A DNA stretch of 64,000 nucleotides from positions 1-64,000 of the forward strand of contig JAQCEQ010000005.1 of assembly GCA_027618565.1 (NCBI GenBank), read 5' to 3'. The position numbers and the translations under genes are program-made. This stretch comes from Planctomycetota bacterium. GTDB taxonomy: Bacteria > Planctomycetota > Phycisphaerae > Phycisphaerales > SM1A02. Of the stretch, positions 17,780 through 26,914 are shown one piece after another. A model generated the notes under the pieces. It searched no databases, was not told where the DNA came from, and worked only from the letters and a program-made list of their open reading frames with translations. The stretch's first letter is position 1. Every line of letters starts with the position of its first letter.

Positions 17780-20359
17780 TCAGCGACCCGCCGCCGTGCC
17801 CTCAACGGGCGCTGCCTCGGCGGGCGCGTTCGCCTTGCTGATCCGATCCGACCAACGCTTGGCCATCGCGCGGCGGCCCTGCTTGGGCGATTCGCTGGCG
17901 ATGGCGTCCAAGACTTCAATGGCCTCGGGGGCGTTCAATCGATCCAGCGCCTGACCAGCACTTTGGAAGCACGCATCCTCAGGGTCATTGAGGCACTCGA
18001 CCAAGACACCCACCACATGCGCCCGGTCCGGTCCCTCGGTGGGTGCCAGCCTTCCCAGCGCCTGCACCGCACGGCCGCGCTCGCGATCGGGCTCGCCACG
18101 CGCCGTCCTGACTTCCACGAACGGCAGCGCCTCGGAGATTCCCAGCGAGGCGCACGCTTCCATCGCCGCACATTCCAGGCTGCCCTGGCTGGTGCGCTCC
18201 TTGCAGAGGGCGACCAGCGCCGCGCGCAACTCGTCCTGCCCCTCCATCGAGGGCTTCCATCGCTCGATCGCCTCGCACGCCGCCACCCGCGCAGCGATTC
18301 CCTGGTCACTCTGGAGCAGCACCACCAGCTCGGGCAGCGCCTCGACGCCATGGTCTGCGCCATACGCCTCCACCGCTGCGGCGCGGACTCGCCCGCGATC
18401 GGGACGCGCGGCGAAGACGTGCGCGACGCCGACCTTGGCGGCATCGGTCGTCCCACGCCCCAAGCACTCGATCGCCTCGACACGCACTGAGTCACGACGC
18501 ACAGAATCGAGTGCGATGACCACGAGCGCCGCCGCGGTCGACTCCCCAAGCTCGGAAGAGATGGCTCGAATCGCCATGCGCTGTGAAGCGAGCGTGGACC
18601 CGCGCACCCCCTGCTCCACGAGCCACTCCTGTGGCATGGTGAGCGACAGCTGCTTGAGCACCGTGAGGCGCGGGTCGATTTCCACCATCGTCGGTGTGGA
18701 CGCAAGCGCGATGTCGATGGTCGACGAGTTCTCCCGCATGTTCACCGTCCGCTCCACTACTTCTCCCGTGGATATGGTTACGCGGATCGGCAACATGAAC
18801 CGGAAGGCCGGCGTGAATGGGTCGATGGGCTGCGTCTGCCTGAGCGCCATCGTCAGCGTTCCGCCGATTCCCTCGCCCGCTGCCCAGGTGGCGGTCGCCG
18901 CGATCTCGGGGCAACCCGGCCGCTGGCACCACTGGTCAAAGAACCACGCCAATTCCAGGCCGCTCACCTGTTCAAGCGCACGGCGGAAGTCACTGGTCTC
19001 GGTCGTGCCGAGGCCATGGCGATCCATGTACAGGTGCACGCCGTCAAAGAAGACCTGGTCGCCCAGCATCTCTCGCAGCATGTGGAGGATCGACGCGCCC
19101 TTGGGGTATGGATTCGCGGCGCGCTCAAACGATGCCGGGCCGTTGAGGTTGATGCACATCGCCTCGTTGTTGGTGGCGACTCGATCGGCGCTCGCCACGC
19201 CAGCATTGTCGTAGAGCTCGTCAAAATAGCCGTCGTCGCCGTCTCTCGCCTCAAACCAGAGCGCTTCGCCGTAGGTCGCCCAGCCCTCGTTGAGCCAGAT
19301 GTCGCGCCAGTCGTGGCAGGTGATGTAGTCGCCGGTCCACTGGTGGCAGAGCTCGTGGGAGATGAGCCCGTCCATGTCGCGCTCGGCGCGGCTGCGCTCA
19401 TCCAGGACGGCGCCCTCCAGAAGCGTGGTGGCCGAAGTGTTTTCCATGCCACCAGAACCGAAGCCGCGGGCACACAATTGGTCATATCGATCCCACGGGT
19501 ACGGCACGCCAAAGGCCTGCTCGAAGACACCCATCATCGCGCCCGTTCGAGCAAAGGTCTCGCGGACATCGTCCCCCTGGCCGGGTCGCGCCCACACGGT
19601 CATCGGCACGCCACCCGGTCCTGCCGGCAAGGCGGTCCGCTCAAACTCCCCACCGACCAGACTCACCAGGTAGATGACATGCGGCTTTGACTGGACCCAG
19701 TGCCAAGTCTCCCGGTCGCCATCGACCGTGTGAGCCGCTAGACGCCCGTTTCCGCTCACCAGCACGCCGCGCGGCACGGACACCAGCAATTCCGTCGTCA
19801 GCCGCTCGTTAGGGGAGTCGTGGCACGGGAACCAGTACGAGTTCTCCTCGGCCTGACCCTGCGTGTGAAACTGCGCTGCAGTTCCCTCCCCAGGAGGCGA
19901 AAACACCATCCCCATTTCCGGATGCTCCACCCGGTAGGTGGTCACCAGCGTCATCTCGCCTCCAGGCGGCAGCGGGGCCGGGAACTTGACAGTGAGCTTG
20001 CGCCCGTCGTAGTCAAACGGGATCGATTGCCCCCCCTGCGTCGCCACTGACAGGTTCTTCAGGTTGACGGCATCCAGGGTGAGCGAGTCCACCGGGAGCC
20101 CCAGCGCCCGAACCGTCAACTCCTGCCGACCCTCAAACGACTCGCTCGCCAAGTCGTCCATGTCCACCGCCAGTTTCATGTGGAGGTAGTCCACAAGCCG
20201 GTTCGGCGGCCAGGTCCGGATGTCCCTCCCGGTGGCGGGGTCGGCGATCGCGGGACGGTCGGCGGGTGGGGTCGGTGTCGGCGGATCATCGACGGCTGCC
20301 GCGGCCACCAGGCAGGCAAAAACAACCAGGGGGAAGGCGCATTGCGTGTTGTGCTTCAT
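17780..20359 (-). CDS. Exported M1-family aminopeptidase with HEAT repeats
   Basis: Zinc aminopeptidase of family M1, which trims N-terminal residues from peptides. From ATG 20359 the protein has 859 residues and begins with a signal peptide (CAFPLVVFACLVAAAA), so it acts outside the cytoplasm. The substrate-gating GGMENTSAT motif is near 304; the zinc site HELCHQW near 336 is followed 18 residues on by the third ligand in NEGWATYGE. After the catalytic part (to about 520) come a beta domain and a helical C-terminal region of HEAT/PBS-type repeats (AAVEAYGADHGVEALPELV, AVQALGRLAPTEG). An upstream start at 20428 would hide the signal peptide. Diverges from pyrG. Confidence 0.9.
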   Translation of the reverse strand: MKHNTQCAFPLVVFACLVAAAAVDDPPTPTPPADRPAIADPATGRDIRTWPPNRLVDYLHMKLAVDMDDLASESFEGRQELTVRALGLPVDSLTLDAVNLKNLSVATQGGQSIPFDYDGRKLTVKFPAPLPPGGEMTLVTTYRVEHPEMGMVFSPPGEGTAAQFHTQGQAEENSYWFPCHDSPNERLTTELLVSVPRGVLVSGNGRLAAHTVDGDRETWHWVQSKPHVIYLVSLVGGEFERTALPAGPGGVPMTVWARPGQGDDVRETFARTGAMMGVFEQAFGVPYPWDRYDQLCARGFGSGGMENTSATTLLEGAVLDERSRAERDMDGLISHELCHQWTGDYITCHDWRDIWLNEGWATYGEALWFEARDGDDGYFDELYDNAGVASADRVATNNEAMCINLNGPASFERAANPYPKGASILHMLREMLGDQVFFDGVHLYMDRHGLGTTETSDFRRALEQVSGLELAWFFDQWCQRPGCPEIAATATWAAGEGIGGTLTMALRQTQPIDPFTPAFRFMLPIRVTISTGEVVERTVNMRENSSTIDIALASTPTMVEIDPRLTVLKQLSLTMPQEWLVEQGVRGSTLASQRMAIRAISSELGESTAAALVVIALDSVRRDSVRVEAIECLGRGTTDAAKVGVAHVFAARPDRGRVRAAAVEAYGADHGVEALPELVVLLQSDQGIAARVAACEAIERWKPSMEGQDELRAALVALCKERTSQGSLECAAMEACASLGISEALPFVEVRTARGEPDRERGRAVQALGRLAPTEGPDRAHVVGVLVECLNDPEDACFQSAGQALDRLNAPEAIEVLDAIASESPKQGRRAMAKRWSDRISKANAPAEAAPVEGTAAGR

Positions 20360-20451
20360 GGCGATGAAATCCGTGGCCGAGGTGGTGCCGGCTCGTGCAA
20401 GTCGTGGCGATCCGGCTTGCATCGCCACCCCCGATCAGGATAGGCTCCGTT

Positions 20452-22766: not shown

Positions 22767-22901
22767 TCAGTCGTCGACGGCATCGCTCAGGGTGTAGCGC
22801 GGGGCGCGACCGCGGTCAGCCTTCGCCTGCACGAAGTAGACGATGCACCAGCCGGTGAGGAGCACGACCCAACCAAGATTCGCAAAGAGGACGCCTGCCA
22901 T
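22767..22901 (-). CDS. Small single-span membrane protein, 44 residues
   Basis: ATG at 22901 opens a 44-codon frame: a short N-terminus, one hydrophobic span (VLFANLGWVVLLTGWCIVYFV) and then a charged cytoplasmic tail (QAKADRGRAPRYTLSDAVDD). The clean amphipathic layout, with positive charges after the span, and a stop just before tRNA-Arg support a real small protein, but no family was recognised. Its length is below the cut-off of most gene finders. The ribosome site is weak. Confidence 0.55.
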   Translation of the reverse strand: MAGVLFANLGWVVLLTGWCIVYFVQAKADRGRAPRYTLSDAVDD

Positions 22902-22974: not shown

Positions 22975-25308
22975 CTACGGCCCCACCGGACACTGCGTCG
23001 GCGCGGGTCCCGCGGGTGCGGGTGAGCCGTCCTCCGACCAGAGGTTGGCGTAGGCCGCCGTCACATCGTCGCCGGGAACCGACGCGTCTTCGATGCTCCA
23101 TGCCTGCACAAAGTGGCTCGGTCGATGCTTCCATCCCGACGCATAGAGCCGGTGCATCGGATCTGGCGATCCCGCGGCCGCCAGTGCCGCAGCCTGCGCG
23201 GCCCACCACGGCCTGGAGAAACCCTGCTCGCTGAAGGCCTCGACCGGGCGCCACATCGTGCCATCCCACGCCTCCACCCAAGTGTGGTTGCCCGTCTTCT
23301 CCAGCCACAAGGGCGTCCCCGCCAGCCTGGCCGGAATCCCACCCGTGCGCAGTGCGTCCGCAAGCATCACGCTGAGCCCCGTGCACGACGCGTACCCGGC
23401 ATCGCGGCTCTCGTAGGGACTCTGATTGCTCTTGGGGCGCTTGGTGGCGTGGTAGACCACATTCTGGTCCTTGAACACAAGTTGGTTCAGCGCCAGCGCA
23501 ACCTGTTCGATTGAATCCGGTGCCTGCGTCGTCGCGAAGAATCGCTCGTAGTAGTCCTTGCGCCACTGGTCTCGACGCTCGTTGACATGCGCGTAGGGCA
23601 TCACTGCATCCAGCCACAATTCCACCGGGATGTCCTTGCTCCACTTGCTCTCGCGGCGCGTGCGCAGTGCATAGTCCAGGTGTTCGACAAGCATCTCCGC
23701 GCGCAGCGACACCAGGTCTCGCTCTGGCATGTTGGCCACCAGGAATCCCGCGGCCTCGGGTGCAAGCGGGTCGGTGGCAGCAGCATCCAGCGCGTGCTCC
23801 AGGTACGCGGCGATCTCCCCCTGATTGGCTTCGGCCATGCTGAATGCCTTGACCAGGTCGCCGCGATACGCCGCCGGGAACTTGGACGAGAGCTCGAGCA
23901 GCGATCCCCACGATGGCACGGCCGCGCGAGCCACCTGGACCGCCGAGTCATCCGCGATCACGATGGTCCGACGCTCCCCTGCCGGCAGGTCCGTGAGTCC
24001 CCGGAACACCACGAAATCGTCCGCGACCAAAGGATCTGCCAGTCCTCCTGCGTCCACCACTCGCGGAGCGGCAATCCTCCGCGGCAGGAACACCGCGGGC
24101 GGCTTCTCCAGGGTCGCGCCCCCCGGCGCGAAAACCGTGACCCGCATCTCGCTGCCGCGATCGTCGATTTCGCTGTCCCACACTTTCCCGCCGCGCGATA
24201 GTCGCGCATCACGATCGGGGCGGCCATAGAACGCCACGCCATCGCGATCCCAGAGGCGCCCAAGGTGCGCCATGACCTGCTCTCGGCTCCAGTCGCTGGG
24301 GAGCGCCGCGCCCGCGGTGCGAAACAACGCATTCGGATCGTCCTTGCCAAAGCCTGGCACCGACGCCTTCGACGAGCCGGGGACATCGCGGTCAAGCGCC
24401 TCGAGAATCATCTGGTTGTTGAGCCAGAACGCTTCGTGGAGCGAGTATCGACCCGGGTCCGCGAAGAACCAGTCCTTGGTCCCCCACCCACCATGCCCCG
24501 CCCAGGTGACCACGGTGTAGCCGACCAGCTGGTCAAAGCCGGCGGTTTCACCCATCAGCGCCAGCGCCAGCGCATCGGGACCATTCACATGTCCAAGCAG
24601 GCAATTCCCCGCAGCGAGGAAGACCTTGGGCTTGCGCGACTCGATGGGGTGCAGGCCACCCTTGCGGTCTACGCCCACCACGCTGCCGTCGCGAGGTTGC
24701 AACGAACCCGCGGGGAATGAGTACCCCATCTCCCAGCCACCCTCGGTCGCGTGGCCGCTGGTCATCATGAAGTCCGGCTGGATCGAGTTGAAGGCAGCCA
24801 CCAGGTCGGTCGTCGTGTCCGTCTCGCCGCGCGTGGTGGCCACGGCGCCATCGGCCGACTTCGTGGTCCGCTCTCCAGCGGCACCTTCGTTGAACCAACA
24901 CCCCGATGTGAATCGATCCAGGGGAATCCCTGTGCCGCCAAACCCGACGCGCACCGAAATCGGTTCCGTCGTCGAAGCCAGCCGCATCGCATCCGCGGGC
25001 GATCGGCCCGTGACGATCCCCCACCTTGTGTCGCACCACAGGTCGGCATCCAGAGCGCGCGTCAGTTGGTGGATGTCTGCAACGAACTCGCGCCCCGACT
25101 GGTCCGGCTTGGAGACGAACACGGTGTACCTGGGCATCGTGGAGGCCAGTGCCGCACGGACACCCTCGGCGCCGCTCTCGCCCCACACAACGATGTCCGC
25201 GGCGGGAGCCATTGACTCCGCAACCGCTCGCCATGCGGGGTCAGCCATGACCTCCTGCGTGGCCACGACGGTGGGAGGAGAACCAAGGGCAAGCAGGACG
25301 CTGAGCAT
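22975..25308 (-). CDS. Exported protein: caspase-like region plus transglutaminase domain
   Basis: A 777-residue protein with a short hydrophobic N-terminus (LSVLLALGSPPTVVA), probably exported. The C-terminal part is a transglutaminase-like domain: Cys near 641 in YASCTGLSVMLADALR, His near 675 in GNHTWVEAW, and Asp near 682 before MWRPVEAF, the expected Cys-His-Asp triad in order. The N-terminal half resembles the fold of clan CD peptidases (gingipain/caspase): MMTSGHATEGG (His near 184) is followed about 50 residues later by LAAGNCLLGH (Cys near 234). The family fit of this half is inference. Such transglutaminase cores often act as proteases or cross-linkers. Its ATG lies only 17 bases from the start of divergent trmL. 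Confidence 0.75.
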   Translation of the reverse strand: MLSVLLALGSPPTVVATQEVMADPAWRAVAESMAPAADIVVWGESGAEGVRAALASTMPRYTVFVSKPDQSGREFVADIHQLTRALDADLWCDTRWGIVTGRSPADAMRLASTTEPISVRVGFGGTGIPLDRFTSGCWFNEGAAGERTTKSADGAVATTRGETDTTTDLVAAFNSIQPDFMMTSGHATEGGWEMGYSFPAGSLQPRDGSVVGVDRKGGLHPIESRKPKVFLAAGNCLLGHVNGPDALALALMGETAGFDQLVGYTVVTWAGHGGWGTKDWFFADPGRYSLHEAFWLNNQMILEALDRDVPGSSKASVPGFGKDDPNALFRTAGAALPSDWSREQVMAHLGRLWDRDGVAFYGRPDRDARLSRGGKVWDSEIDDRGSEMRVTVFAPGGATLEKPPAVFLPRRIAAPRVVDAGGLADPLVADDFVVFRGLTDLPAGERRTIVIADDSAVQVARAAVPSWGSLLELSSKFPAAYRGDLVKAFSMAEANQGEIAAYLEHALDAAATDPLAPEAAGFLVANMPERDLVSLRAEMLVEHLDYALRTRRESKWSKDIPVELWLDAVMPYAHVNERRDQWRKDYYERFFATTQAPDSIEQVALALNQLVFKDQNVVYHATKRPKSNQSPYESRDAGYASCTGLSVMLADALRTGGIPARLAGTPLWLEKTGNHTWVEAWDGTMWRPVEAFSEQGFSRPWWAAQAAALAAAGSPDPMHRLYASGWKHRPSHFVQAWSIEDASVPGDDVTAAYANLWSEDGSPAPAGPAPTQCPVGP

Positions 25309-25325
25309 TGGACGAGAATAGTGCC

Positions 25326-25841
25326 GTGGCCCCGCCAGTCGAACCCCTCTTCCATGTCGTGCTGTTCCAGCCGCAGATCCCCAACAACACGGGGAACATC
25401 GGCCGCACCTGCATGACGACGGGCTGTCGCCTGCACCTCATTCATCCGCTTGGGTTCCAGATGGACGAGAAAGCGAAGCGCAGGGCGGGGCTTGACTACT
25501 GGCAGCATGTCGACTGTGTTGAACACGCCGATTGGGAGGCCTACCTGCGCGATGCTCGCCCCACGCGCCTGTGGCTGTACACGACGGCATCGCCGCGCCC
25601 ACATTGGGAGGCGCGCTTTGAGCGGGGAGACCACCTCCTCTTTGGCCAAGAAAACGGCGGCGTGCCTGAGTGGCTTCACCAGTGGGTCGACCAATGCCAA
25701 GGGACGGGCCATCGACTTGGGCTTCCCATGCGGCCGCTCAAGGAGGCTCGGTCTCTCAACTTGGCCACGGCAGCAGCGTGTGGGGTCTACGAAGCGTTGC
25801 GGCAAGTCTCTCCGGCGGAGCTCCCTTGGGACACGCCTTGA
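25326..25841 (+). CDS. trmL: tRNA (cytidine/uridine-34-2'-O)-methyltransferase
   Basis: SPOUT-fold methyltransferase that 2'-O-methylates the wobble base of certain leucine tRNAs. The 171 residues carry the typical layout: HVVLFQPQIPNNTGNIGRTC at the start, LIHPLGFQMDEK, then LFGQENGGVPEWL and the SAM-binding trefoil knot residues in PMRPLKEARSLNLATAAACG. GTG 25326 gives the usual N-terminus; a TTG at 25308 in frame would overlap the start codon of the opposite gene. A pseudopilin-like gene follows 122 bases later. Confidence 0.92.
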   Translation: MAPPVEPLFHVVLFQPQIPNNTGNIGRTCMTTGCRLHLIHPLGFQMDEKAKRRAGLDYWQHVDCVEHADWEAYLRDARPTRLWLYTTASPRPHWEARFERGDHLLFGQENGGVPEWLHQWVDQCQGTGHRLGLPMRPLKEARSLNLATAAACGVYEALRQVSPAELPWDTP

Positions 25842-25963: not shown

Positions 25964-26914
25964 ATGAACCCAACGAACACGCGCGCCGTGCGTCGAGCCT
26001 TCACCCTGACCGAGATCCTGGTCGCGGTCGGCATCATCGTCATCCTCATTGGACTGCTGCTCCCCGCCCTGTCCAAGGTGACGCAGCGCGCCAAGGTGAC
26101 GGAAACGCAGGCGCTCATGCAGGAGTTCGCCAAGGCGTGCGATGCGTTCTATCTGCAGTTTGGCTACTACCCGGGGATCGTGTCCGAGAATTCGCTTGTC
26201 CTGGCCGATGGAACTCCGCCAATCCTCTCTGGCATGGAGAACGCACTTCTCCACCTGATGGGCGGTGCCGTACGAAACGACGACCCTGACTACGCCAGTT
26301 TCGGCGGGACGGAACTGACCTTCGGCAACGGCGTGAAAATCAAGTTTGATCCCTCCGAGATTGGCAAGCGGACCCGGATCAACGGCGAGTGGTTCCCCCC
26401 GTTCTTCACGCCCAAGGGCAATCAGCTCGGGCTGGCACTGGGGCAGGTCAACGAGAGCGTGCAGATTCCTGAATTGCTCGATTCCTGGGGCCAGCCCGTC
26501 GCGTTCGCGCGATCTCTCCGGAGCAGCGGACCCCTCACTGGCCCACGCTCGACAAACCCACAGTTCCTGATCGAGCCGTTGATGTCGTACACCACCTCCC
26601 CCGCGCTGGGAGAGTTGGCGCAGGACCAAACCACCGGAAACTCCGGCGCCTATTCGCTCCTCAACAACACCCTCTCACCGTACGGGATGTACGGCGCCAT
26701 CCTGCGACACCCCGGACTGGGAAAATTCTCCACCCTGGGCGATGCCCAGTACGGCACCGCCCGCGGCAAGTATGTGCTCATCAGCGCCGGCGCCGATGGC
26801 ATCTTCTATTCCGTCAAGGATGGCATCGGGTCGACCGCGATGACCAACGCCGACTACGCCAAGCCCGGACTGGCCGAGCGCTACAACGACATCATCGTCT
26901 TCGGCGGCGGGTGA
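25964..26914 (+). CDS. Type II secretion/pilin-like protein (prepilin N-terminus)
   Basis: The N-terminus RRAFTLTEILVAVGIIVILIG is a class III prepilin signal: a short basic leader, cleavage before Phe by prepilin peptidase, Glu at mature position 5, then a hydrophobic helix. The 316 residues are far longer than a major pilin. The C-terminal part ends with a segment found in many planctomycete pseudopilin-like proteins (KYVLISAGADGIFYSVKDGIG and NADYAKPG, with a Gly-rich end). It probably forms part of a surface filament or secretion pseudopilus made with the PilM/PilB set at 41.7-53.3 kb, which is inference. A -10-like TATGAT lies about 45 bases upstream of the ATG. No strong ribosome site. 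Confidence 0.85.
   Translation: MNPTNTRAVRRAFTLTEILVAVGIIVILIGLLLPALSKVTQRAKVTETQALMQEFAKACDAFYLQFGYYPGIVSENSLVLADGTPPILSGMENALLHLMGGAVRNDDPDYASFGGTELTFGNGVKIKFDPSEIGKRTRINGEWFPPFFTPKGNQLGLALGQVNESVQIPELLDSWGQPVAFARSLRSSGPLTGPRSTNPQFLIEPLMSYTTSPALGELAQDQTTGNSGAYSLLNNTLSPYGMYGAILRHPGLGKFSTLGDAQYGTARGKYVLISAGADGIFYSVKDGIGSTAMTNADYAKPGLAERYNDIIVFGGG

Follow-up and report, generated by a model that had tools for sequence, protein, structure and literature searches.

A C25-like domain recurrently paired with transglutaminase-like domains in a probably exported planctomycete protein family

According to passages of PMC4357240, a Gly beside the catalytic His is conserved in all families of clan CD. 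Prokaryotic domains of this clan that have lost dyad residues are described in parts of PMC6426788 as pseudo-orthocaspases, and exported proteins that may hold a caspase-like or a transglutaminase domain occur among the polymorphic toxins treated in passages of PMC3482391. A pairing of C25-like and transglutaminase domains was not described in the text returned by full-text literature searches, nor in passages of PMC3482391, PMC7159879, PMC8195603 and PMC4357240. An earlier sequence-only reading of the gene studied here, which called the combination one not known as described, agrees with the literature searched, as far as its text was covered.

The gene lies in a 64,000-nucleotide stretch of a contig of a Planctomycetota bacterium, the whole of which is called the window. 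The frame reported at 22975-25308 was confirmed on the minus strand with 777 aa, and the ATG at 25308 is the sole ATG/GTG/TTG start downstream of the preceding stop codon. The following features were assigned:

22975..25308, minus strand: whole gene, 777 aa (P0001), with C25-like domain, beta-rich linker and transglutaminase-like domain
25258..25308, minus strand: residues 1-17, short hydrophobic N-terminus, a possible signal peptide that is doubtful by itself (relatives have longer ones)
24967..25269, minus strand: residues 14-114, N-terminal subdomain, common to the A5 (GHG...ACYTG) families, which partly match Peptidase_C25
24214..24861, minus strand: residues 150-365, aligned to the C25 catalytic subdomain (hhalign)
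24751..24753, minus strand: His186, aligned with the C25 catalytic His
24601..24603, minus strand: Cys236, aligned with the C25 catalytic Cys
23869..24213, minus strand: residues 366-480, beta-rich linker, assigned by alignment position and by strands in a low-confidence model
23236..23868, minus strand: residues 481-691, transglutaminase module (Pfam PF01841), consisting of a conserved extension (481-595) and Transglut_core (596-691)
23383..23385, minus strand: Cys642, transglutaminase site, present in 19/19 fusions
23284..23286, minus strand: His675, transglutaminase site, present in 19/19 fusions
23239..23241, minus strand: Glu690, at the position where a catalytic Asp is usual

By analogy with gingipains, the linker may be Ig-like. 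The N-terminus of the window protein (MLSVLLALGSPPTVVA) is short and carries no positive charge, while its relatives possess longer, ordinary-looking signal peptides, from which the family is likely to be exported; the window copy would then be exported as well. The export claimed by the sequence-only reading is therefore backed by the relatives, but the window's own signal peptide is weak.

A SpoU methylase gene (25308-25841) is arranged head to head with the fusion gene and was rejected as a component of the system. We also looked for a functional partner among the syntenic neighbours; those to which a name could be given resemble housekeeping genes. A hydrophobic frame of 44 aa follows the fusion immediately downstream on its strand (22767-22901, minus). 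The protein encoded at 25964-26914 (plus strand) has a start which we take to resemble that of a type IV pilin or pseudopilin, and the position of this gene near the fusion is kept in two other genera. Further away, a protein in which HEAT repeats follow an M1 aminopeptidase is encoded at 17783-20428 (minus strand).

Direct searches of Pfam, NCBIfam and PDB sequences gave no match for the N-terminal half. With respect to Peptidase_C25 (PF01364), the window protein had no match at E<=10, and the 27 sequences in alignment A1 likewise had none at E<=5; a distant relative (L060) matched at E 0.034, which is under the cut-off. By hhalign, an alignment of the N-domain comprising 32 rows was matched to 16 true C25 sequences with 95.8% and a score of 72.5, compared with a best score of 22.2 for 60 column-shuffled versions, and the dyad was in register, His186 on His and Cys236 on Cys. 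When the alignment contained 12 rows only, the direct match to C25 reached no more than 56.5%, so the match depends on a diverse alignment. We therefore name the N-half C25-like but do not count it as a member of C25.

The 12-row profile was also used to search 392 genomes of the phylum and found matches in 64 of them. Approximately half of the 64 genomes match over the first ~100 positions only, and their proteins continue to a GHG...GACYTG pair (A5). PF01364 recognizes six of the 15 A5 members at E<=1, with 1.2e-6 as the best value, and L072 is the only one among the matches listed that exceeds the cut-off. Profile comparison gave 99.1% for the N-domain (A2) against A5, with the Cys region out of register, and 98.1% for A5 against C25. 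Judged by these profiles, the A5 families bridge the N-domain and C25 as intermediates. Large planctomycete families (L063-L082) share the N-terminal subdomain and the GHG...GACYTG pair; they are mostly under the Peptidase_C25 cut-off, and His or both residues are lost in L063, L065 and L069. The window genome itself contains a true Peptidase_C25 match (G000:C3:598-1787; L099, L103), which is divided into two parts close to the end of a contig.

Comparison of the N-domain with 15 C14 sequences of the class gave 2.3% and with C11 0.1%, and an identity as plain caspase (C14) or clostripain (C11) was rejected. The mismatch to C14 is a weak test, since the same method also misses the relation of C25 to C14 (0.4%, i.e., no link). 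Of the caspase-like His-x50-Cys pair proposed for this half, the motifs TSGHATEGG and AAGNCLLGH are present and the domain aligns with a clan CD family, its dyad falling on the His and Cys of C25. Its profile does not link it to C14, though, and 49 residues separate His186 from Cys236. In view of the low similarity to C14, gingipain-like is the better word. His186 is followed by Ala, whereas L132 and L133 read GHG; the true C25 members L084 and L093 read GHA like the window protein. Two AlphaFold2 models, calculated from an alignment of two sequences (the window protein and L032, 89% identical), had mean pLDDT values of 40.2 and 34.4 and were unusable, for which reason the fold has to be deduced from the sequence. 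On these grounds the N-half would be a diverged C25-like clan CD domain.

The assignment of the C-terminal half as a transglutaminase domain was borne out by a match of Transglut_core (PF01841) with E 7.4e-11 and 42.7 bits, well over the cut-off of 23. Its Cys and His are kept in all 19 fusions known to us (see below). The acid position is occupied by Glu in 18 of them and by Gly in L005, and in a weak profile alignment Glu690 corresponds to the Asp position of the transglutaminase-like protein 3isr. Asp is found at this place in L124, L126, L128, L129 and L130. Hence, from the full Cys-His-Asp triad that had been read, Cys642 and His675 stand but the third residue is Glu690. Transglutaminases of the window type also exist without the N-domain (n = 20, L145-L164); 13 of these have a GYSAGG motif afterwards and nine match a DLH hydrolase. 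In this group, of which L148:1141-4236 is an example, an alpha/beta-hydrolase often follows the transglutaminase (GYSAGGDGV in 13/20). The partners being either C25-like or alpha/beta-hydrolase, the transglutaminase module is joined to hydrolases of apparently two folds.

Matches to the window protein were obtained in 165 of 400 genomes of the order. In 19 of them, among which is the genome of the window, a single frame encodes both halves; other genomes have either half alone. Eighteen fusions are nearly complete and one (G378) ends at a contig end, while a possible twentieth may be split over two contigs (G037). The other fusions are 33-89% identical to that of the window. In two further genera (L170, L171) the fusion has the neighbours known from the window, namely genes for a SpoU methylase, a pilin-like protein and Mrp, and on account of these neighbours the fusions are probably orthologues. 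Compared with the 89% identical relative, dN/dS was 0.075 for the N-half and 0.059 for the transglutaminase, at a dS near 1 that is close to saturation; both halves of the window gene are under strong purifying selection. Viral contigs scanned with three alignments yielded no relatives, four plasmid records were found that each contain the transglutaminase part only, and a search of genome contigs with the sequence of the window protein alone gave just one close relative.

Conservation differed between the residues of the putative dyad. The Cys of the N-domain is kept in all 56 aligned rows and the His in 41, the other 15 (14 fusions and the non-fusion L141) having Arg instead. Among the 19 fusions, His is replaced by Arg in 15, including some at the syntenic locus (L170, L171), and kept in four (window, L003, L004, L005). 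The dyad His186/Cys236 is intact in the window's genus. The 38 rows other than window-type fusions all keep His except L141. Two His/Arg changes are required by the 56-row tree, from which L022 (partial; Arg), L125, L131 (partial) and nine loci repeating earlier ones were left out. The sequence-only reading had held that non-conserved His and Cys would speak against it; this applies to His in most fusions but not to the invariant Cys. Since His is Arg in 15/19, most fusions probably have a non-peptidase N-half, and with conservation in 19/19 against 4/19 for His, the transglutaminase site is held more firmly by selection in the fusion branch than the C25-like dyad.

Outside the window genome, 31 N-domain loci from 28 genomes were counted; G037, which is partial at a contig end, and matches over the first ~100 positions only were left aside. 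These genomes contain 144 PF01841 matches. In eight of the 31 loci a transglutaminase shares the frame or lies no more than 2.5 kb away, where 0.23 were expected under uniform placement (Poisson P 1.7e-10, with relatedness ignored). As a control, none of 92 subtilisin (S8) matches in the same genomes, representing about 89 genes, was situated within 2.5 kb of a transglutaminase (Fisher P 7.7e-6). The two domains share a frame with the C25-like part first in L124, L129 and L131 and with the transglutaminase first in L126 and L122 (the transglutaminase match of L122 is interrupted upstream); they are neighbouring genes in L130, L128 and L121. By motif, the paired transglutaminases are of three subtypes. 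L124 and L129 combine His, Cys and a transglutaminase Cys-His-Asp in one chain. The eight loci do not stand for eight independent events, as L126/L128 and L129/L130 are related in the tree. The pairing of C25-like and transglutaminase domains is recurrent and not a one-off.

We are somewhat inclined to regard the window protein as a probably exported two-domain cysteine enzyme, whose C25-like half and transglutaminase half act on the same extracellular proteins. The C25-like half would bind an extracellular protein and, where His is present, cut it, and the transglutaminase half, with a papain-like fold and Cys642/His675/Glu690, would hydrolyse or transfer amide bonds of the same substrates. 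Both sites are probably live in the window's protein, so that the two thiol centres in one chain suggested at the outset are probable for its genus, but His has been lost in most fusions. In the sister lineages with Arg, the N-half is probably a non-peptidase module reduced to binding or regulation, and the transglutaminase alone would work. The sequences show directly which domains are present, which residues are conserved and that the pairing recurs, whereas the fold of the N-half, catalysis at both sites, export of this copy and the substrate are deduced. Against this reading stand the Arg in place of His in 15 of 19 fusions, the Glu in place of Asp at the transglutaminase acid position, the His-Ala instead of His-Gly, the missing PF01364 match, the unusable models and the weak signal peptide of the window protein, as well as the partial relatedness of the pairing loci.

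Rather unlikely is a reading in which all fusions have a pseudo-peptidase as their C25-like half, serving substrate binding or folding next to a transglutaminase that is the sole enzyme, with the His of the window's genus a leftover. The loss of His in 15/19 fusions beside the complete retention of the transglutaminase Cys and His would fit, and pseudo-orthocaspases without His/Cys are known according to parts of PMC6426788. However, 37 of 38 rows outside the window type (the exception being L141) and four fusions including that of the window retain His together with Cys, and a pure scaffold does not explain why Cys236 is invariant even where His is missing. A processing peptidase that cuts its own chain and thereby releases or activates the transglutaminase, as in some large toxins or surface proteins, is improbable. 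Passages of PMC3482391 do describe caspase-like domains that act as auto-processing peptidases inside a chain, ahead of its C-terminal effector domains, but the reverse order in L126 and L122 and the separate genes in L128 and L130 need no self-release, and most fusions lost His with the layout unchanged. Least probable is a new fold unrelated to clan CD with a fortuitous His/Cys pair. While the want of a Pfam or PDB sequence match, a His-Cys spacing larger than in C25 and the not universal His would agree with it, the C25 profile match lies far above the shuffles, and the intermediates carry GHG...GACYTG.

A sequence family lacking Pfam coverage is now linked to the gingipains, and its joining to transglutaminase-like domains is seen to recur. 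Were both sites active, single-chain enzymes with two extracytoplasmic thiol centres could remodel extracellular protein, and the His-to-Arg lineage with its invariant Cys would offer a natural experiment of a peptidase turning into something else. A wider generalization, which as a whole we hold to be quite unlikely, is that in planctomycete-type bacteria an undescribed C25-like family and transglutaminases form a recurrent modular pairing that arose several times and in either order, in which secreted chains with two independent thiol centres first cut and then re-join or modify extracellular proteins and one lineage repurposed the thiol, replacing His by Arg and keeping Cys.

Among known systems, gingipains (C25, PF01364) resemble the window protein by a two-part N-terminal region, His followed by Cys, and a GxP after the catalytic part with a beta-rich stretch behind it. 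The window protein differs in having no direct match, His-Ala, the 49-residue spacing and the C-terminal transglutaminase, and in window-type fusions His is often lost. With the transglutaminase-like superfamily (PF01841) it shares the Cys and His of the site and a match over the cut-off, whereas Glu for Asp and the conserved extension before the domain set it apart. Unlike in polymorphic toxins, neither toxin repeats nor an immunity gene were seen in the window locus. In pseudo-orthocaspases, which are another family, both His and Cys change (to Tyr and Ser, according to parts of PMC6426788), while the fusion family exchanges His for Arg and retains an invariant Cys.
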